Shown here: positions 1,406 to 63,853 of the stretch, piece after piece
Layout of the letters: the number at the start of each line of letters is the position of its first letter
Numbering within the stretch: the first letter of the stretch is position 1
Assembly (NCBI GenBank): GCA_030141605.1
Contig: JAQGDQ010000026.1
Coordinates: 940,001 to 1,004,000 of the forward strand
Length of the DNA stretch: 64,000 bases
Direction of reading: 5' to 3'
Source of the DNA: Tubiluchus corallicola
Lineage: Eukaryota > Priapulida > Priapulimorpha > Priapulimorphida > Tubiluchidae
Notes under the pieces: generated by a model
The model's input: the letters and a program-made list of their open reading frames with translations, nothing else
What the model was told of the DNA's origin: nothing
Database searches by the model: none
Made by a program: the position numbers and the translations under genes

Positions 1406-4400
1406 CGCCCGTTTGCTTAAGCACTTTGCTCATGTACCTCGTAATTATTATTAAAATTATTAAATGTCATATAATTTTTTTACTAAAGAGGAGAGACAAC
1501 CAGCACATCCTGTTAATAAAAAAGTAAATACTGGTTATTGCATTAATCGACTTTCTTGGTAATTAAAAATAATAATTACAAAGCATTTGGATCAACATTT
1601 CCTCGGTTATTTCATCATATCTGAACAGTTGCAATGACTCATCCCACAAGCTGTCGCCTAGGCCTCAGCTGAATGATAAAAATAGCTTCATTATACATTT
1701 AACTGGCAACTTATAATTCTGGTTAATGATTGTTTCGATTTAGGTGAGTGTGCATTTAAGACAGAGAAAAGCATGCAAAGGTTATTGCGCTCAAGCATGG
1801 TAGTTCGATGCCATGCTTGGTCGACTTGAAAGCATTCTCAAAAAATACATTTGGATAAAATTTTAATACTGTAGTTAGTACACACTTCTAGAGGCTGATA
1901 AGCCTGTCCTACGAAAAAGTCCTGTTCAATCATACAGCCACTTTTTCTGCTGAAAGCAATATCTCGAAATAATTGTAAAAATGCAACAAAGGAACTGAAA
2001 CTAACAAACTCATGAAAAACTCACACAGATCAACAGCTAGAATATCACAGCTAGTATTTCTACCTTCAGTGTAAAAGTTTTTATGAAAACCAAAAAAAGG
2101 ACTTTATACCTTGTTAGGAAATCACCTAATTAAAATGTTGTTGTATTAATTTTTAGTTTATTTAGGCACTGTTGGCGCAATGCGCTCTAACATATCATCT
2201 AGTTGTACATTAATTAATTTTAAGAATGAACAAAAGAATTAGCAGAACACAAAAATCATTCAATGACTGGCATTAAAGCTCTGTAGTGTTTAGTTTTTGC
2301 ATTTACAAAGGGCCATAAGCTGCAACATACAAAAGCCGCTTGTTTGCTACAGGTGACGACTTCTGATGATTATGACATAAGAACAAGAGAAAGAAATGGT
2401 ACAGTAAAAGTGGGCCAGTATTCATTGAAATACATTGTAATCTAATGTAAATCAGTGATTGCCAATTACAGCGATTGACATTTGAATGAACTAGTTCATG
2501 ATCAACTTAGTACATGAACTATCATTTGCAAATTAGCAATATACAAATTAACTTGACAAAATAATGATAGATCCCAAAAAACTTCTATTTCTACTTAAGT
2601 TTTTCTAATTAAGAAAACTGATAAAACTCGTCACTTATTACTTCCTACTTGTATATAGCCTCTGTTGAACTAATGCAACCCCTCTCAAGCATAATACACG
2701 TCACACAATTTTAGGTGCTTTATCTATATCCTAGAGTGCAAATCATTCATACTAATATACAATATACAGGTAATAACACACTGTTCAGGTTAATTAACAA
2801 CGTGCTGAATGCATGGAGAGGAACATTGGACTCACGCACAAACGCAGGCGTACAGCAAAAATGCAAAGCGTATAGCCGTGGCTTCAGCAATCAATCAACG
2901 TTGTGGATGCCTGAAACCCTAATCCTAATCAATAGCCGAGTAAAATATGGAGCACAGGAAGACAAGCAGAGTGAAATCTGCTGTTGTTGGATGAGAAACA
3001 GATATATCACCTGTACATACATGGCTTCCTAATGCAGGAATCTGCTGTGTGAACAAATAATCTACTGTATGATCATAGGCGGTGTACAGGAACCTGTGTT
3101 ACTGGAGCCCAATAGGTATTTTTAATAGGGCATATTTCCTTACACTAAACTACTATATACATTGGTCGTTTCTGAAAAGTAATGAAAACCCTATGAAGCC
3201 TACACTACCATAACACTGAAGTACCAACTTTTTGTTCAAACATTCTATAAAGATCTGAAATTTGGACTCAGTATTTATGGCAGCGCACACAATTTTCAAG
3301 CAGCTACAACTGCAGTACAGGACTTGAGTTTTACATGCGATGACTTTTAATCCTATCAAGCATTTCCGTAAATCCGCTATCACTTGCCCCATACCAAGTA
3401 TCAAAGCTAAGTGGAGTGCTGCATAAGTCTTCAGACCATCTAAAGGGCGTATTTAGTTGTCTCCCTGCTGGCTTTCTTCCAGTAAATAAGGCTTGCTGCA
3501 ATGCCAGCAGCCCAACACTAGAGTTATCACACTGAACTATATAAATCATGCCAATCTGAAGCAGCTAGAGGCACTACCCTTAAAGAAAAGAAGCCTTAAT
3601 GAAAAATCACCAAATATTTTTTCTTGTAGTAATAATGTCTAAACTAACATACAGGTTTGTTATTAAACTGCAAGGAAAAATGGAGCTGACCTTGGTGCGA
3701 AAGTGATTTTCTGTCTTCCCAAAATAGGTAACATTCTGGTCCCAAAATTTATAAACCACAATAGATGTGAAGCACCTAGGAATCCTGTCTTTAAGAGAAA
3801 AAGCTGTTGAATCTACACGTGGAATGAAAAATTCGACTTGTGGTAGATGATTTTTTTAACTATACACTGTGGGTTTTTACTACTTGCACTTTTCCACTAT
3901 GTATGTATTCTTGAAAATGGCTGCCATTAGGTTGCCAAAATATGAAGCTATGTTTCTCAAAAAATCACCTGCGAATGCATTCATCTTTTGCATTTCATCC
4001 AGAATGTCTCACAGTGTTATTACTTCAGTTATGCAATTCACAAATTTCAAGATGGTAACTTCAGTGTTACTTATTTTGGAAAACCCAAGCAGCAAACACC
4101 ATCTATGCACTATAATCAATGTAACTGTCCCTGCAATTTAGTAGCAGACTTGAGTGTTTGCTAAGAAATCATCTACCCTAAGTCAAACATTAGGAATTTT
4201 TCATTCCATGCACAGGTTCAACAGCTTTTTTCATTTAGGACATGATCCATTGCATCTTGGCCATAACTGCCTGCAAGTTAGAAGCAGACATGCATGTTTC
4301 CCTAGACAATAATTTACCACGAGTCAAAATGTCGAGTAATTTTTTATTGAGCATGCAGATTGAATAACTTTTTCCTTTTAATGACCCTAGGTGTCACTTA

Positions 4401-5151
4401 GATGGTAACTTCAGATCTGGCATGGTTTATAAATTTCAGTGTAGTAAATGACCATTGAGCACCTGAGTGTCTCGCCTCTAACAAAACTTGTACTTTTTAC
4501 TACATCACTGAGAACTTTACCATTCTCAAAGCAACGAAAGAATTTTTACTTACTTATAACACAGAGAGTTTATTAATTGGACGAGAAGAATCAGCCTTCG
4601 ATACTAAGCAAATGTTTCCTGCTCTATTGTATCTCAAGATTTTAATCTACTACAGATTTTTACCTATTTATGGCTTACACTTGTTTACCGGTATCTTGCT
4701 AGGTGCTTCAGTCTTATTAATGACTTTATGAGTGATAATGGCTGCTTCCAGTAATTTTGTTTTGCCTTCATGCAATGTTAAAACTGCATTTATTAATATA
4801 CAAAAAAGGTCTGTTAGTTATTCACTGTTAATTTGTAAAATGGATTTACATAGAAAATTATCTGTTTTGACTATTGTAACATGTAATCAACTTATTTAAG
4901 AATTATAGCAGTTTAGTGTGCTACCAATTGATTTATTGATCCACTGAATATTTTGATCTTATTGGTAATGCTGAAAGACTGTTAGATGATTTATGTTCCA
5001 CTTAGAAGTCTGAATCTTGACAGCTATTCTGGTAGCATTTAAAACATATATCTAGCATGTACATGTGTTTTAATAAATCTATTCAATGAGAGTTAAACGC
5101 ACTACCAATAAAGTTCCGAATTTAATATAAAATTCTTTGTATCACCTACAT

Positions 5152-11230: not shown

Positions 11231-11815
11231 ATGGCATTTTCTATGACAGCCGCAATCAGTGGAATTCAATATAGATTCCCAAAAGTTGTTAACGTCAGCA
11301 CTGAAACTTTGGATGCTTGGATGAAAAATAAAGCAAAGTCATTAGAAAGCAGCGCAGGAAAATTGCATAACAATAGTGTCGACGATAAGCTTAATGTTGT
11401 AGATCCCGGACAGCTAATCCTATTGGACAGCCGCGAAGATGAAGAAATAATGATAAGCAAAATTCCTGGGTCTGTACCCATCAGTCCACAAAGTACTGGC
11501 CAGCAATGTCTAAATAAGATAATTCAAGAGGCAAATGATTCAACTGAGAATAAAGTTACTGCAGTTTTTTACTGTTCTGTTGGATATCGGTCTTCAAAAC
11601 TAGCTCAAGAACTAATGAACCAGCTAGACAAGGACGATAACTCCACAATATCAAAGCCTGTTGTTGTGTGTAATTTGGCAGGAAGCATTTTTAAATGGGC
11701 AAATGAAGGAAGATTTCTTGTTGATGGAGAAAATAAAAAAACAAATTATGTGCATCCATACAGTGTCATTTGGGGAAAACTGTTAAACTCAGACTTGAGA
11801 AAATGGTCATGCTGA
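11231..11815 (+). CDS. Rhodanese-like domain sulfurtransferase, intronless
   Basis: A single uninterrupted 194-codon frame starting at ATCAAAATGG. One rhodanese domain spans roughly residues 18-165. The strand before the loop reads LILLDSRED (residues 62-70), equivalent to the D-x-R motif of the family. The active loop is CSVGYR with the catalytic cysteine at about C115. A NLAGSIFKWANEG segment follows (148-160), and the C terminus has VHPYSVIWGKLL (174-185). Rhodaneses form a cysteine persulfide and transfer sulfane sulfur; the acceptor here cannot be inferred. The N terminus is neither a clear signal peptide nor a strong presequence. The lack of introns contrasts with the intron-rich neighbours and suggests retroposition or transfer, although the frame is intact. 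A likely AATAAA signal lies at 12230. The plant/cyanobacterial-like GSIFxWAN...HPYxxxWGKLL tail points to a particular small rhodanese subfamily. Confidence 0.87.
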   Translation: MAFSMTAAISGIQYRFPKVVNVSTETLDAWMKNKAKSLESSAGKLHNNSVDDKLNVVDPGQLILLDSREDEEIMISKIPGSVPISPQSTGQQCLNKIIQEANDSTENKVTAVFYCSVGYRSSKLAQELMNQLDKDDNSTISKPVVVCNLAGSIFKWANEGRFLVDGENKKTNYVHPYSVIWGKLLNSDLRKWSC

Positions 11816-46479: not shown

Positions 46480-46950
46480 AGCTTTTTCCACAATTAATAT
46501 TTTGGAATAACACCCAACTCATACGACCATCATCTGAAACTCTTGCCCAAATAACCATCTTCTTTCATTTTCATAATAAGGACAATGCTGTAAAATGTGA
46601 TATAAATTCTCCAAGCCCAAACCACATTTATAAAGTCTATCGCGTTCAGCTATCTTCCACCTAAATAATGGATTTCCAATGTACCAACTCTTGTTTTCAC
46701 CAGCAACTCCGTATTATACATATCGTTCATCCAGCTTTCTAAATAAGGCCGTGGTTTGTTATTCAAACATATATTAGCGGTAGAACATGCTACAAGTTTA
46801 TCCCGCCATAATTGTAAACCTTTTCCCTCACCTTTTTTTCAATGAACTGATTCCAACCCTTTTCAATAAAATTTGCGTCAGCTAGTTTCTTCAACCCATC
46901 CTGTAATCTTATTACAATCTTATGAGATCCATTGTATTGCATTTGATTAG
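46480..46950 (-). pseudogene. Reverse-transcriptase C-terminal relic (non-LTR retrotransposon)
   Basis: The minus strand reads LKKLADANFIEKGWNQFIE near 46900, then NKPRPYLESWMNDMYNTELL, and after a frameshift ERDRLYKCGLGLENLYHILQ followed by HCPYYENERRWLF. The final C...NLYHILxHCxxxxxxR pattern is the zinc-knuckle-like tail seen after RT in many LINE ORF2s. It has stops and frame breaks. It abuts the left arm of the foldback element at 46973. Confidence 0.65.
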
Positions 46951-47092
46951 TTAGAATGTAAGTAAGAATTATCCCGGTAAAATGGAACAGGAAAAATAGC
47001 ACAAATGGAAAACTATGTAAAAACGACACAGGTAAAAATCGCACAGGAAAAACGGCACAGTAGGGGTTAAGGTTTACTTTGGGGGATATTTT

Positions 47093-47300
47093 TTTAGTTT
47101 TTACCTCTGCCAAGGAAGTTATGCTTCAACACAGTTTCTTTGTTTGTTCGTTTGTTTGGTTGGTTGTTTTTGTCTGTTATAGCAGTAAGCTTATTAGCAA
47201 AAACTACCTAACAGATTTCCCTGAAACTTTGCGAAGAAAGTGGGCATCGGCTGTTAAAATGGGTGTTTTTCGGCCGTTCTTTTTTCACAAAACTTGACCG
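47093..47300 (+). repeat. Block resembling a widespread interspersed repeat (CCAAGGAAGTTATG...)
   Basis: CTCTGCCAAGGAAGTTATGC, then TTTGTTTGTTCGTTTGTTTG, then CAAAAACTACCTAACAGATT and TCCCTGAAACTTTG. From memory this order (CCAAGGAGGTTATG, TTTGT runs, CAAAAA...ACGGATTT...GAAATTT) recurs in many unrelated genomes. That recall is unsourced here. Confidence 0.4.
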
Positions 47301-47372
47301 AACACCACGTACAAAAAAAGTTCGTGGCGGTCTCAGAGGGAGCATTTAGTGCTTCTTTTTATTATTTCCACC

Positions 47373-47927
47373 AGAACAAACAACTACGAATTAGTTCCAG
47401 GTTCCATTTCGAGAAGTTCTCGCTTAGAAACAGTCTATAACCTTTTCTTATTAATGTGTATAGCCTTATAAGCTGACTTGGTATGTAAATACACAAACCT
47501 ATTACCATCGCCAAAATTAATGGTCAAGAAACGCAGATAAACTCTATGTGGAATATTCGTGAATTATTGATTATAATTCTAAAAAATATGAACAAAGTAT
47601 TTTGTTAGTCTTTTGTTAGTGTATATAACACCAGTACAAGTATATTTTTAGAACAAACAACTACGAATTAGTTCCAGGTTCCATTTCGAGAAATTCTCGC
47701 TTGGAAACACTGTCTATAACCTTTTTTTTATTAATGTGTATAGCCTTATAAGCTGACTTGGTATGTAAATACACATACCTATTACCATCGCCAAAATTAA
47801 TGGTCAAGAAACGCAGATAAACTCTATGTGGAATATTCGTGAATTATTGATTATAATTCTAAAAAATGAACAAAGTATTTTGTTAGTCTTTTGTTAGTGT
47901 ATATAACACCAGTACAAGTATATTTTT
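47373..47927. repeat. 277-bp tandem duplication
   Basis: Copy 1 is 47373-47649 and copy 2 is 47650-47927. They are nearly identical and differ by only a handful of substitutions and small indels (for example GAGAAGTTC versus GAGAAATTC, and AAAATATGAAC versus AAAATGAAC). Low divergence implies a recent duplication relative to the much more eroded foldback arms around it. Confidence 0.95.
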
Positions 47928-48310
47928 GTGTGTTGGCTTCTTTATTTTTGTTTTACGCTTTTTTAATCAAAAGAATCAGACGGACAAGTATTGGTTTGTT
48001 TGGCTTTGACAGATATCTGCTTCCTACTGAGCGCATTCTAATTTTATTATAGAAATCAACTGCATCAAAATAACTTTTGTGCTATTTTTTCCTACTTTTC
48101 CATTTGTGCCTTTTTTCCTTTGCCATTTTTTCCTGTGCCATAATTCCGGTACCACATTTACCGTACATTTTCCTGTGCCATTTTTACCTGTGCCATTACC
48201 GGGCATCGATTAATTGTTATGATGTCTGAAATAAGTTTATAACTTTGAGTGTTTTTGTCAATATAAACCTAATTTCACATTCAGACTGTTTGTATTCTCT
48301 AGGGTGCGCG

Positions 48311-49665
48311 ATAAGTTTGGTACTAGTAATTTTGGTACAAGGAAGCTTTGGTACAGGGAAAATTTGGTACAGAGAAAATATTGTACTGGTAAATATGGTA
48401 CTAACGAAGTTTTGTCAGACATTTTTGCCACAAGTAAATATGGTACAAGGTAAAAATGGTACGGAACAAGTTTGGTACTAGGAAATTTTAGAACTCAGAA
48501 AGTTTGGTACTAGGAAAATATATTTTTTGTATAACCTACTCGAACAAGTTATAGAGGCTCATATTGTTACATTTGTTTTAGTTGTTTTTGTTTGCTTCCT
48601 GTTTGTCTGTTGTTTGTTATTTGTCATTGTTGTTGTTATTGTTGTTTGTCAATTTCTTGTTCGTTCTTTTGTTGTGATTACAACCACTATCACCACTATC
48701 ACCACCACCACCACCACCACCATTATTATCATTATTGCTGCATCATGCCACCACTGTTACTTTTGTCGTTTTGTTGCTGTTGTTATTGTTGTTTTGTAAC
48801 TGTTGCTGTCGTTGTTTTTGTTGCTGCTGTTGTTGTTGCTATTGTTGTTGTTACTGATGTTGTTGTTATTCTTGCCGTATGTTACTTCTTGCTTGCTGCT
48901 TTTGTTGTCCTCAACATCGTCGTCATCTTAATCATGAAAAAGTGCAGTTCTCACTCCCCACCGTAGGCCTCGCGAGAAACCGAACTATGTTTATGCAGGA
49001 CGTTTCTGTCCAGTGATATCATTAGCCATCACCGACATGTTCTTATCTCAGTTTCACCATTTTAATAAAAAAAAACGCAGAAAGTGATCATTTTTCCGGA
49101 AAAAACTAATTGACCGACTTTTTTTGAAAAATTCGCATGGTGAGTTGGAGACCTTTAATTTTTTGCTGAAAAAATTCTCAAATGTACCTGCATGGGTGGA
49201 ATAATCACGGATAAAATTTTAGCTGCCACACACTATTAATTACAGTATACTGTTTCATGAACTTTTTAATAAATCAGACTTTCCTTGTACCAGATTTCCT
49301 CCCTACTGAATAAAATTCTTTATTTTCTAGTTGAAACAATTATTTTACACTGAGATATAGAAATGCTTTCTTTGTCGTTTAGTATCAAATTTTCCTCGTA
49401 CCATATTTTCATAGTACCAAAACTTCCTTCTACCAATATTTCTTAGTAATAAAAAATCCTGGTACCATATTTTCCTCGTACCAAACATTCCCCGTACCAC
49501 ATTTTCCTACTATTAAGAATTCCTTGTACCTAAAGATGATAGTGCCAAATTTACCTGTACCAAAATTACCACGTACAAAGAATTTCTAGTACCAAATTTT
49601 CCCGGTACCAAAATATCTTCGTACTAAAATTACCAGTACCAAACTTTCTTGTACCAAACTTTTCT
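48311..49665. mobile_element. Foldback-type element with arms of degenerate TTTGGTACAAGGAAAA units
   Basis: The left arm (48311-48522) starts AAGTTTGGTACTAGTAATTT and continues TTGGTACAAGGAAG. The right arm (49380-49665), reverse complemented, starts AAGTTTGGTACAAGAAAG, then TTTGGTACTGGTAATTTT. Both arms are arrays of roughly 15-17-bp GGTAC-centred units, about ten or more per arm, in opposite orientation. The centre carries TTG/CAC triplet repeats and no transposase. It lies 107 bp from the element ending at 48203. Confidence 0.7.
48590..48870. repeat. TTG/TTA/CAC trinucleotide tracts
   Basis: Imperfect TTG/TTA and ACC/CAC triplet arrays. Long ORFs here encode Val/Cys/His homopolymer-like peptides and are repeat artefacts. 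They lie inside the foldback element. Confidence 0.9.
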
Positions 49666-51205
49666 ACATTCAGTTTCTAGATGCTAAAAGATAACAAGCA
49701 TAATCTTGATGTATGTTACGCCCGACACGACGACGACGGCGACTGACACGACGACAATTATAATGAAGGTAGTCGATGGCGCAGGTGATAGTGATGATGA
49801 TGGAAGTGGTAGTGGTGACCATGAGGATCATTAAACATTTTGTTTCATTAAACAAAGTCAAAGTTTATTAGTTAAATAGCGGTTAAATGACAAATGTCAG
49901 ACGCGAATTCTCTCTTAAAGTCTAAAAGTCATAAGCCAGCAAATCATTTATACTGCCAGCCTATCAAGTCTTTTTTAAAAGCATTTGATACCGAGTTTAA
50001 ATTAAGGTCTTTTATATAATAATCAAATAAAAAAACTTTTATATTTGATTTATAGGGTCACATAATAAGTCGTATCAAATCAAACGTGTATTATGCTACG
50101 ATATGTTATCCTTACTTAGTTTATTTAAAACTTGTTTTACTACATTCGCATCTAAAACAAATACAAATATGAAAAGTGATTTCAATGTACAAGGTTCGTA
50201 TAAGTACATAACGAAGAGTTATTAACAATAATAAAAATAACTTTAAATTAAAGAAATCTCATATTTTGCTGCCCACAGCATAACAAACATTAAATATTAG
50301 TTATCCATTTGCTGTAAGCCCTGTCATTTCAACATAAACGTTGTTGTTGTCACTTGAATTTTTGCTGCGAATTTATATTTACGACTTAGAGAATTTCATA
50401 AAAATATTATTAAGTAAATGGCAAGATCAAAACTGCCTTTGCATGAAAGCAGATATTATTGCATTTTTCTCTAACAACCACACATCCATCTTCCTTAAGG
50501 GAGTAAACAATATTTCTTTCCACATTTTCATTTTCTCCGCGCAGAGCTATAACTGCTGGAACTGTGGCGGTGCCTTTGATGTGCGTCGGCGCTATTGATG
50601 TAATTAGCGGCCCATTAAGGAATCTGCGCCCGACCTTCTAGATGCAGTTGTGGGCCTATTTAAAACTTGTGAGACGGTAAACCCAGCTTACAGTCTCCCC
50701 TCATTAAGTGATTATGACGTAGGCAGTGATACCAGTGGCACCGAGTTTTATTTTATTGATTCTTGAATTCTTGGAAGAATGAGAAAACGTAAATTTCGAC
50801 TCCAAATTCTGCTGCAACTGATTTAATATTTCCAGAGGATTGTATTATTTGCGAGCTTAAGACACTTCGTTAAACCAAATTATTCTCGCTAAGTTTGCAA
50901 TATATATTTACCAGTACTACTATATAATACTAGTACTTATATCTCGACTATAATTACTTTCTTGGACTTAGTGTAAAGTAATATCTCATTTACATTTTCA
51001 ATAAATGCAATTTACGCAGTAAAGTCAGCTAATTTGACAAACACATAATTTAACATAATGAACGGTAAGTTATGCTTTTAAAACGCCAACACTTTATTGT
51101 GAGTATTATATCATAATTTTTATCACTTCTGTGACTGTTGTCTCCACTTAGGTGTAATATAAATTTACTATTTTAATTAGAGCAAAGATCAGAATTAGAT
51201 GGATG
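49666..51205. other. Sparse region with one candidate tiny exon
   Basis: Contains the candidate exon at 50545-50580. A segment at about 50405-50648 stays open on the minus strand, and an adjacent plus-strand stretch (50602-50766) ends in an acidic peptide. Neither is identifiable. The remainder is AT-rich with no feature seen. Confidence 0.35.
50545..50580 (+). CDS. Candidate 12-codon exon with CWNCGG motif
   Basis: A CCGCGCAG acceptor is followed by codons for SYNCWNCGGAFD and a GTGCGT donor. The phase (0/0) matches the exon ending at 46383. C-W-N-C-G-G is the start of the N-terminal zinc-binding module of metazoan HSCB. Without the donor the frame stops six codons later. The minus strand is also open across this segment, so the exon could be spurious. 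Confidence 0.3.
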
Positions 51206-61400: not shown

Positions 61401-63853
61401 GCTTAAGGCTGTTCCAGAAAGTGTAAGCTTTCTTTCGAGAGTAGTCACCCTGAATGTATCTAATAATGAACTGAAGGAGTTGCCATTAGGAATTGCATCC
61501 ATGCGTGGTAGGTAATGTATGCTGGCACGATTAATCAAACCTTTGTTTATGTTTGTTTATTTAATGTACTGCATCACTGCTTTTGCAGCTTCAGTGAAAA
61601 GCTGCAAGGTGGCAAGGGATTCAAGCATCACTTTTTAGCTTTTTGGTTTCCTTTTTTGTTTATGTCCGTTTTTGTTTCACTTTCTTTTTTCACAATTCTG
61701 ATACCTTGTTACTGTTTTTTAGCTTTAAGGATGTTAGATGCAACACACAATAAGCTTACAGAAGTACCAAATGAGATTGGATTTTTGCATGAGTTAGAAC
61801 AGCTTTACCTTCGTCACAATCAGCTACAGATAATGCCCATGCTGGAGGGTACTGCCCTAAAGGTTCAGTATAATTACTTGTTATCAGAAAGTTCTAATGT
61901 TTTACTTGTAACTATACATAACAGAGTTTAAACATGGCATTTTTAAAGTACTGCATGTTGGGTACAACAATGCATACATTGACTTCATGTGTATTTCAAA
62001 CAAGGAAAAAGGTCCTGCTTTTCTTTCCAGTTATTCTTGTGTAAAATTGTATTGTTACTTGCATAAATCAAATGGACATTTGTTTAACTTAAACAAATTC
62101 TCCAACTAAAAACTGTTTACTGTTGCTTTTTAAATAACTTTAGACTTTTTTAGTATTTACAGCCAAAACAATGTTTAATGATCAGTGTGGGCTTTAAATA
62201 CATGATAGTGATTGTCTTCAGCATGCAGCACCTGATATGTACCATTTCAGTTAGCTATCAAGTAGGACAGGGATGTGCAAATTATCTGACTGACTGGGCC
62301 ACATTAAACTTTCACACAATTCCTGCAGGCCGCATGCAGTTTGGTCAAAGGAGGCAAGAACAGTAGGACCTAATAACGATTTTTCTGCATTCGATCTTTG
62401 CACATCATTACTACTACACTCAAGAAAACTATTTTAGAAGTTATTAAAATTCACGTTGAAAACTATAGATTGTGCAGTACAGTGCATATTAATCTGTCTT
62501 GAAACACTTGATGTTCTTCTTCAATCTATAAGAACACTACACCTGATGAAATAATGAAACAGCCACTGATCAAGGTGTCCACTACTGAGCCTTAGCAGAA
62601 ACTAAAATTTGGGAATCCCCTGATATCAAGGGTGATCACACTTTTACAGCTTGCTGTCTATATAAAAATTGATCTGCCCAGTATTCTTGGTCATAGTAGA
62701 TAGATTATTTTGACTTGGTTATTTCATAATTTTATTTATAATTTATTTTGTAAAATAACCAAGTCAGAACGATCTACCTGCTATTACCAAGAAGATGACT
62801 GGGCTGACCTACCGGCCAATCAGATTGTTTCTCGCATTTCTTGCACATTTGAGCATTTCAATAGCGGCTTCCGTGGTAGTTTGCTGTGTTCTGTGATTAC
62901 ATTGCTTTTTTGAGTTCTGAGAGAGCAATGTGAAATTTCGTCATGCCCGACTGTGACATTCGGTGACAACCATCTTGCAAGGGTTAATGCAATCAGTGGA
63001 AAATGCTAGTGGAAAAAAAACTACCGCAATATCTTTGCGATCATGGTGCAGACCTCAGCTGGAAATATCGTCCTAATACTTGCACTTTCATTAGGTTGAC
63101 AAACCTCTTCATGGGCCAAACAAGATCTCTAGGTGGCTCGCAAGCGGTAGTAGTTTGCACACCCCTGAAGCAGTAAATTTTATGCAGTGTTTCATAAATT
63201 TTCAAATGATTACAGGAATTGCATTTGGGAAATAACTGCATCAAAGAGCTGTTACCACGGCAACTAGAACAACTGTTAACCTTGACAGTTCTGGATTTGC
63301 GAGACAATAAGATTTCTACCTTGCCAGAAGAGATTACTCTTCTTACAAGCTTAGAGAGATTGGACCTGACTAATAATGATCTTTCAAGGTACAAGCACTC
63401 AACTTGATTAGAAGTCCTTCCTAAAACTTTATTTTTAGTTGAGAGTTTTGCAGTATTGATGCGTTGTGTTAGGTATGGTGTGGTGTGGTGTAAGTATGGT
63501 TTGGTTTAGTGTGGTGTGGTGCATATTGTTACTGTGGTGTGGTGTTGGGTGGCAGTTATGGTGTTGTGTGGTGCTAAGTGGGTTGTTATTGTGTTTATGG
63601 AAAATTCTTTGCAGGGTTTGTCTGGTTCCAATATAAATAGTCTCCCTGCGTCATACCTAAAAGCGACTAAGCTACCATACATCTAGTGATTACTTTATTA
63701 CATTTATTCTCGTTTATTAGCATTCCCTACAAAGTTGGCACAATGAAATTACATTCACTGTTAATTGAAGGCAACTCGTTGAGATCTATTCGTCAAGATA
63801 TTCGTAAGCGAGGAACGTATGGTTTGCTGAAATATCTTAGAAGTCGCATTGAG
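55479..63853 (+). CDS. LRRC40: Leucine-rich repeat-containing protein 40, first 8 exons (3' truncated by window)
   Basis: Exons: 55479-55641, 58712-58890, 59866-59939, 60352-60481, 61384-61507, 61723-61862, 63216-63388, 63721-63853. They join in phase to 372 codons and continue past the window. The N terminus (MSKFQEFRKK...) leads to ARNTGQLNLSCRSLSLVPDE, matching the LRRC40 opening, then RWWDQESLTKLNLSFNQI. Successive LRRs of the LxxLxLxxNxLxxLP class follow in the same order as the human protein, ending EGNSLRSIRQDIRKRG and LLKYLRSRIE. That point corresponds to about residue 370 of roughly 600, so the second LRR block is missing. The exon 6 donor (AAG|GTTCAG) is weak but the phase requires it. 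The cellular role of LRRC40 is poorly defined; LRRs imply protein binding. Introns 2 and 6 hold hAT-like insertions. Confidence 0.96.
56905..57130 (+). pseudogene. LINE ORF2 C-terminal relic in LRRC40 intron 1
   Basis: The plus strand reads FSNAEIQL-stop-NSLPEQGV, then CFKYTLDTYL. This is the usual xxxxNxWNSLPxxVVxAxSxxxFKxxLDxxL tail of jockey/CR1-like LINEs, with the tryptophan codon mutated to a stop. Confidence 0.6.
58943..59422. mobile_element. Candidate hAT-like MITE in LRRC40 intron 2
   Basis: The left end is TAGTGTTTCGAATCGGCC and the right end, reverse complemented, is TAGTGCTGTTCCGATTAATC. Both lead into ATCGAT-rich subterminal sequence. The flanking 8-mers match only poorly, so the boundaries are tentative. 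Confidence 0.5.
62268..63167. mobile_element. hAT-like element in LRRC40 intron 6
   Basis: The left end is CAGGGATGTGCAAATTATCT. The right end, reverse complemented, is CAGGGGTGTGCAAACTACTA. This is the familiar CAGGGGTGxGCAAACT hAT terminus, followed on both sides by GGCC-containing sequence. The flanking 8-mers AAGTAGGA (62260-62267) and AAGCAGTA (63168-63175) agree at six of eight positions. It is 900 bp with no transposase. A 14-bp internal hairpin (TGACTTGGTTATTT and its complement) lies at 62712-62766. Confidence 0.82.
63460..63600. repeat. GGTGTGGTGT minisatellite-like tract
   Basis: Imperfect GGTGT/TGGTG repeats over about 130 bp in LRRC40 intron 7. Confidence 0.85.

Follow-up and report, generated by a model that had tools for sequence, protein, structure and literature searches.

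Layout of the elements in the window

Two inverted repeats, E1 and E2, stand almost end to end in a stretch of 64,000 nucleotides of the Tubiluchus corallicola genome (the window), each with arms built from short degenerate units. Their presence raises the question of whether they are mobile elements or chance arrays, whether they form one element or two, and to which group of transposons they belong. The first-pass annotation had described them as foldback elements with inverted arms, and the arms were found again at both places. In local alignments of each left arm with the reverse-complemented right arm, compared with 1000 dinucleotide shuffles and with 1000 random pairs drawn from positions 1-46000 of the window, E1 scored 41 (shuffles: mean 18.3, maximum 28.5; 1/1000 random pairs reached 41) and E2 scored 89 (shuffles: maximum 38.5; 0/1000 random pairs). 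By their long inverted arms of tandem subrepeats flanking a loop, E1 and E2 are both foldback-type elements.

Their existence was thus confirmed, and comparison with genomic copies moved their limits. E1, initially placed at 46973-48203, extends over 46954-48207 (ends from comparing 20 genomic loci), and E2, initially placed at 48311-49665, over 48303-49671, so that after correction the gap between them is 95 bp rather than 107 bp. E1 is a non-autonomous element on the minus strand, in opposite orientation to E2; the other features of E1, E2 and E3 are given on the plus strand. It shows GAATGTAAG at its left end and ACCGGGCATC at its right end, a left arm at 46954-47063 with units like GGCACAGGAAAAAT, and a right arm of inverted units at 48075-48207. 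In its loop a unit of about 278 bp is tandemly duplicated (47373-47926; three blocks of 99, 99 and 93% identity); among the copies read this was seen in the window copy alone, the unit being single in 20 other E1 loci, some of them incomplete. E2, also non-autonomous, runs GGTGCGCGATAAG...TTTTCTACATTC, with a left arm at 48303-48522, in which a 15-16-bp unit (TTTGGTACTAGGAAAA) is repeated about 13 times, and a right arm at 49380-49671 of about 18 inverted units. The subrepeat size is 14-15 bp in E1 and 16 bp in E2, and the E2 units are degenerate, with 62-65% matches within the arms. Each element is bordered by a target duplication of its own: GATTAGTTA (46945-46953) and GATTAATTG (48208-48216) on either side of E1, whose end was set by hand, and ATTCTCTAG (48294-48302) and AGTTTCTAG (49672-49680) on either side of E2, both pairs agreeing at 7 of 9 bases. 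In agreement with the proposed lack of a transposase, the longest open frames in the window copies measure 77 codons in E1 and 143 codons in E2, the latter within a trinucleotide-repeat stretch.

A small element that had been reported near position 1201 is real and a member of the same family, at the corrected position 1226-1398. This copy of a small third subfamily, E3, has the ends GGTGACCGGTGAT / ATCTAGGTTT and units like GTCACAGGAAAAA; its arms scored 21 (shuffles: maximum 18; 0/1000 random pairs), and no clear target duplication was seen outside its ends. The window also holds two further inverted repeats that are possibly unrelated small elements, one at 62684-62793 with 55-base arms and no loop, the other at 3782-4246 with 53-base arms 359 apart, and a rhodanese domain in a 194-codon frame at 11231-11815.

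Copies in the genome and their termini

The whole assembly (343.5 Mb, 2344 contigs) was searched with arms and loops. The E2 arm gave 72 matches from the best 40 of 323 candidates, the E2 core 41 from the best 40 of 107, the E1 arm 68 from the best 40 of 739, the E1 core 48 from the best 40 of 936, and E3 46 from the best 40 of 144; these match counts include the window copy, a locus may yield several matches, and the candidate counts are rough. We read 32 E2 loci (20 picked by core and 12 more picked by arm), 20 E1 loci, 14 E3 loci and six others, mostly with long arrays. The loop sequence is roughly 72-90% alike between copies. A single insertion was present on two contigs (L077 and L078). 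In contigs C1787 and C2264 the E2 matches have identical coordinates but for a shift of 14 bases, and C2138 has them mirrored; these are near-duplicate contigs of the assembly. A telomere-like run resembling TTAGGGTTAGGGTT recurs in the loop beside an arm in E1 and E3 copies.

Many of these genomic copies have the same ends, so that the absence of such copies, named beforehand as grounds for rejecting the initial reading, is not what was observed. Read in opposite orientations, E1 and E2 have a pair of asymmetric termini in common, GGTGCGCGGTAA... and ...CCTACATTC. The commonest ends are GGTGCGCGGTAAGTTTGGTAC at the start and GTACCAAACTTTCCTACATTC at the finish of E2 copies, GGTGCGCGGTAAAAATGGCAC and GCCATTTTTACCTACATTC for E1 copies (in the other orientation), and GGTGACCGGTAATAAAGTCAC and GTGACTTTTTTACCTGGATTC for E3 copies; these are the most frequent forms, and the two ends are not preserved in every copy. 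Both asymmetric caps are thus common to E1 and E2, and those of E3 are close relatives. Read inward, the E1/E2 cap is GGTGCGC on one side and GAATGTA on the other. With zero mismatches, a degenerate pattern of 21 bases for the E1/E2 start was present 46 times, and the reversed pattern 0 times. Behind the cap at each end are arrayed units of about 13-16 bp starting with GGTAA, which differ by subfamily (TGGCACAGGTAAAAA in E1, TTTGGTACTAGGAAAA in E2, GTCACAGGAAAAA in E3). The suggestion that E1, E2 and the small element form one family with diverging units is borne out by the termini GGTGNNCGGTAA / TTACCTNNATTC that they have in common. A text search of the literature for the 12-base terminus gave a single paper, which by its title deals with human phagocytosis.

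Target duplications

The flanks of the copies carry a short duplication. Among 18 E1/E2 copies whose ends were called automatically, 9-bp identity was 0.593 vs 0.318 in permuted flanks (z 7.3), and in 7 of the 18 at least 7 of the 9 bases agreed (mean 0.51 and maximum 4 under permutation). With three copies added whose ends were placed manually once their flanks were already known (L023, L025 and window E1), z rose to 8.7, and the bases beyond nine were at background. These 21 copies come from 42, window included, most of the others being below the end thresholds; L022 and L027 were taken out by hand as the end match fell inside an arm unit. The 9-bp register is poor in L006 (3/9), L017 (2/9), L039 (2/9) and L020 (1/9), and perfect 8-bp repeats were seen by eye in L006 and L017. 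At the same fixed offset, four distinct loci from the 12 E2 loci read later agreed at 8, 7, 4 and 8 of 9 bases, eight having been left out (seven without a called end on one side, and L078, which duplicates L077). In E3 a duplication of 8 bp was preferred (z 7.1, all 15 copies kept, including the poor-ended L058 and L071), and 9 bp fits by eye in L060. A test of whether the right flank of the window element is unique gave only an 80-base piece as a further match, and no empty site.

Foldback anatomy and non-coding copies are supported, as are fixed ends and target duplications in copies scattered over the genome. That the facing arms are independent simple-sequence expansions and no transposon at all is hardly credible: their units are degenerate and such arrays are able to expand alone, but it is contradicted by common boundaries, by loops that are roughly alike from copy to copy, and by duplications of 8-9 bp at unrelated sites. 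Helitron and pearl-type elements are not known to have a target duplication or long inverted arms, and this identity was ruled out by the presence of both here.

Search for a transposase and superfamily

We consider it probable that E1, E2 and E3 are one non-autonomous foldback-type DNA transposon family, with Mutator (MULE) as the most likely superfamily. The elements would move by cut-and-paste under a transposase acting in trans, most likely a MULE one; the terminal cap may be the cleavage site, and the repeated arm units would offer multiple transposase-binding sites. The number of units would drift by unequal exchange or slippage, occasionally running into satellite-like arrays. Membership in Mutator rests on duplication length and architecture, because no MULE or Merlin locus that was read had paired ends. 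MULEs duplicate 8-11 bp of target according to PMC6446971, and the 9 bp of E1/E2 and 8 bp of E3 lie within this range.

An autonomous partner was sought with the MULE (PF10551), Merlin (PF12762) and FLYWCH (PF04500) domains and one MULE-domain frame from the same genome, and also by reading the 12 E2 loci selected by arm and not by core. A scan for long frames in 72 element loci (L001-L040, L052-L083) revealed no transposase frame. Of the frames above 250 codons, four belong to arms or unit arrays (L036, L052, L053, L054), one to an N run (L057), and two lie outside the matched element parts (L055, L072). The L072 frame has 442 codons and no significant Pfam match. The L055 frame, at 2221-3237 and about 550 bases from an E2 arm, encodes a sulfotransferase (Sulfotransfer_2, E 1.4e-40).

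The MULE domain gave 7 matches genome-wide, and paired ends with arms were present in 0 of the 5 loci read. L041 was considered as an autonomous copy, as a very loose end-like pair (3 and 2 mismatches) encloses its MULE frame, and was rejected: it has no unit array and no duplication, its flanks agreeing at 2/9. This frame (4245-4991) is a ZSWIM1/3-like, MULE-derived sequence; a genome search with it gave only three relatives, all weak (25-26% identity), and it is possibly a host gene. L042 and L044 belong to another MULE family, with inverted ends of 65-72 bp about 7 kb apart and, in L042, the MULE domain in a 413-codon frame. A further MULE locus, L043 (C1597:143500-152000), is on a contig that looks bacterial, from a contaminant or symbiont; C1597 has long intronless frames, by eye xylose isomerase, RecJ and RsgA, and an IS256-type transposase gene (Pfam Transposase_mut) in tandem duplicate.

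A family of the same anatomy moved by a Merlin (IS1595-like) transposase is an unlikely alternative, though it has points in its favor. According to PMC8101967, GG stands at the start of Merlin elements, their target duplications measure 8 or 9 bp, and internal tandem repeats are present in some of them; the Merlin domain also has 7 matches in this genome. Against it, one end of our family starts with GG but the other with GA, none of the 4 Merlin loci read out of those 7 had paired ends or arms, and long arms of short units are documented for MULEs. At 3 mismatches, the transposase loci contained scattered single end-like words, as at the Merlin loci. The FLYWCH domain gave no match, and this is no evidence either way since a control search likewise found nothing.

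Relation between E1 and E2

The simplest reading of E1 and E2 in the window is two separate insertions with 95 bp between them, and not one composite, because each has its own duplication. In favor of a larger composite moving as a unit, E1 adjoins E2 in L011 in the order and orientation of the window, and in L045 it adjoins a piece of E2. However, the order and orientation in L045 are unlike those of the window, and L011 has a perfect 9-bp duplication (9/9) for E1 itself, with a spacer and outer flanks unrelated to the window's (spacer score 8.5 vs a null mean of 9.2). The adjacency was therefore repeated, not inherited. Another family member was present in the fetched DNA of 5 of 32 E2 loci (L009, L011, L015, L080, L082) and of 2 of 20 E1 loci (L027, L033), a 48-base E1 match in L074 being left out of this count, and absent from that of 27/32 and 18/20, respectively. 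We therefore regard the composite as very improbable. Apparent nesting in L009, L015 and L082 revealed no clean pre-insertion target.

Structure and evolution of the arms

Arm length varies among 12 E2 copies from 198 to 410 bp on the left and from 52 to 436 bp on the right. The two outermost steps between E2 units are mostly of 15 bp, in fractions of 0.88 and 0.65 of 18 left arms and of 0.87 and 0.62 of 16 right arms. The inner steps are mostly of 16 bp, with exceptions: the third left step is divided half and half, and the twelfth right step is at 15 bp in 0.60 (n=5). The outer units retain the spacing of the terminal unit, 15 bp, and its final GTAAG, and most of the inner ones have moved to 16 bp.

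In the same 12 E2 copies, the left arm scored 86.1 against its own right arm and 87.2 against the right arms of other copies, compared with 128.3 for left-left and 122.9 for right-right pairs. Arms of one copy are thus no more alike than left and right arms of different copies, so that most of the array must be older than the spread of the family, and left and right arrays have been inherited as such, without homogenisation inside a copy. For 9 E1 copies the corresponding test showed no contrast, all four comparisons giving 0.84-0.85 identity. These results bear on the proposal that arms grow by slippage. Some satellite-like arrays agree with it, such as those of L052 (55 copies of 30 bp, 93% matches) and L054 (42.7 copies of 15 bp, 87% matches), but the distinct, unhomogenised left and right arms of E2 do not, and slippage within arms looks like a minor process for E2.

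Pieces resembling the terminus were found inside many arms. CGCGGTAA, with at most one mismatch, occurs in 8/16 left and 6/16 right E2 arms (null means 0.87 and 0.48) and in 4/9 and 3/9 E1 arms (null 0.36 and 0.35), and GTAGGTAA in 6/9 and 7/9 E1 arms (null 0.82 and 1.10), although these counts are not independent as the copies are related by descent. TGTAGGWAA showed no enrichment in E2 arms (3/16 and 4/16; null 4.03 and 3.39). A tentative reading, which we hold to be possible rather than probable, is that the asymmetric terminus was kept while the whole subterminal array was exchanged on two or more occasions, so that E1, E2 and E3 have different units behind nearly the same end, the new array regrowing from the terminus-adjacent unit. 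Regrowth from the terminus is suggested by the outer E2 units, with their spacing of 15 bp and final GTAAG, and by the terminus-like pieces inside many arms; the lack of TGTAGGWAA enrichment in E2 arms counts against it at that end. If array replacement did take place, the unit and the binding domain of the transposase would change together while the cleavage site stays frozen.

Comparison with known elements

By description only, the family resembles Drosophila FB, with long inverted arms containing internal repeats, and Galileo of the P superfamily, which has such arms and a P-type transposase. Tm1, a Mutator/Foldback element of Meloidogyne, has composite arms with a variable number of units of about 14 bp, 9-bp duplications and mostly non-autonomous copies, as here (PMC3169594). 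Its asymmetric 7-bp terminal motifs, CGGTTAA and CCTACCC, may be compared with CGGTAA and CCTACATTC in our family, a short likeness in which the second motif is taken as printed, its orientation unchecked (PMC3169594). Unlike our family, Tm1 has the unit sequence CGATTCAGTATCGC, is low-copy and includes a Phantom-type transposase copy, whereas we found no transposase copy; the three subfamilies with different units also set our family apart from it (PMC3169594).

The Muta1 and Muta5 MULEs of Aedes aegypti carry a terminal motif of 8-10 bp with 9 subterminal tandem repeats of 12-15 bp behind it, duplicate 8 or 9 bp of target and have hundreds of non-autonomous derivatives, a likeness by description (PMC5225508). 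Muta1 duplications are 8 or 9 bp, as in E1-E3, the repeat number of its derivatives is variable, and 10 of 12 long-arm Muta families have subterminal tandem repeats of 9-15 bp (PMC5225508). Unlike our family, Muta1 and Muta5 encode transposases, and Muta1 moves in yeast (PMC5225508). Tetris/DAIBAM of Drosophila virilis is a non-autonomous foldback element with no transposase found and 8-10-bp duplications, and its arm repeats grow into satellite arrays and resemble a terminal piece, all as here; its 220-bp repeat unit and its Drosophila host distinguish it (PMC4079207).

The family appears to be new, and its kind is already known in insects and nematodes. The two odd repeats of the window are resolved as members of one abundant transposon family with no visible transposase in the assembly. 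Also, the Mutator-foldback architecture of insects and nematodes, if the most likely affiliation is right, is extended to another genome. With three subfamilies that combine one type of end with different units, this family is a natural test of how arrays of subterminal binding sites originate, change and run away into satellites.
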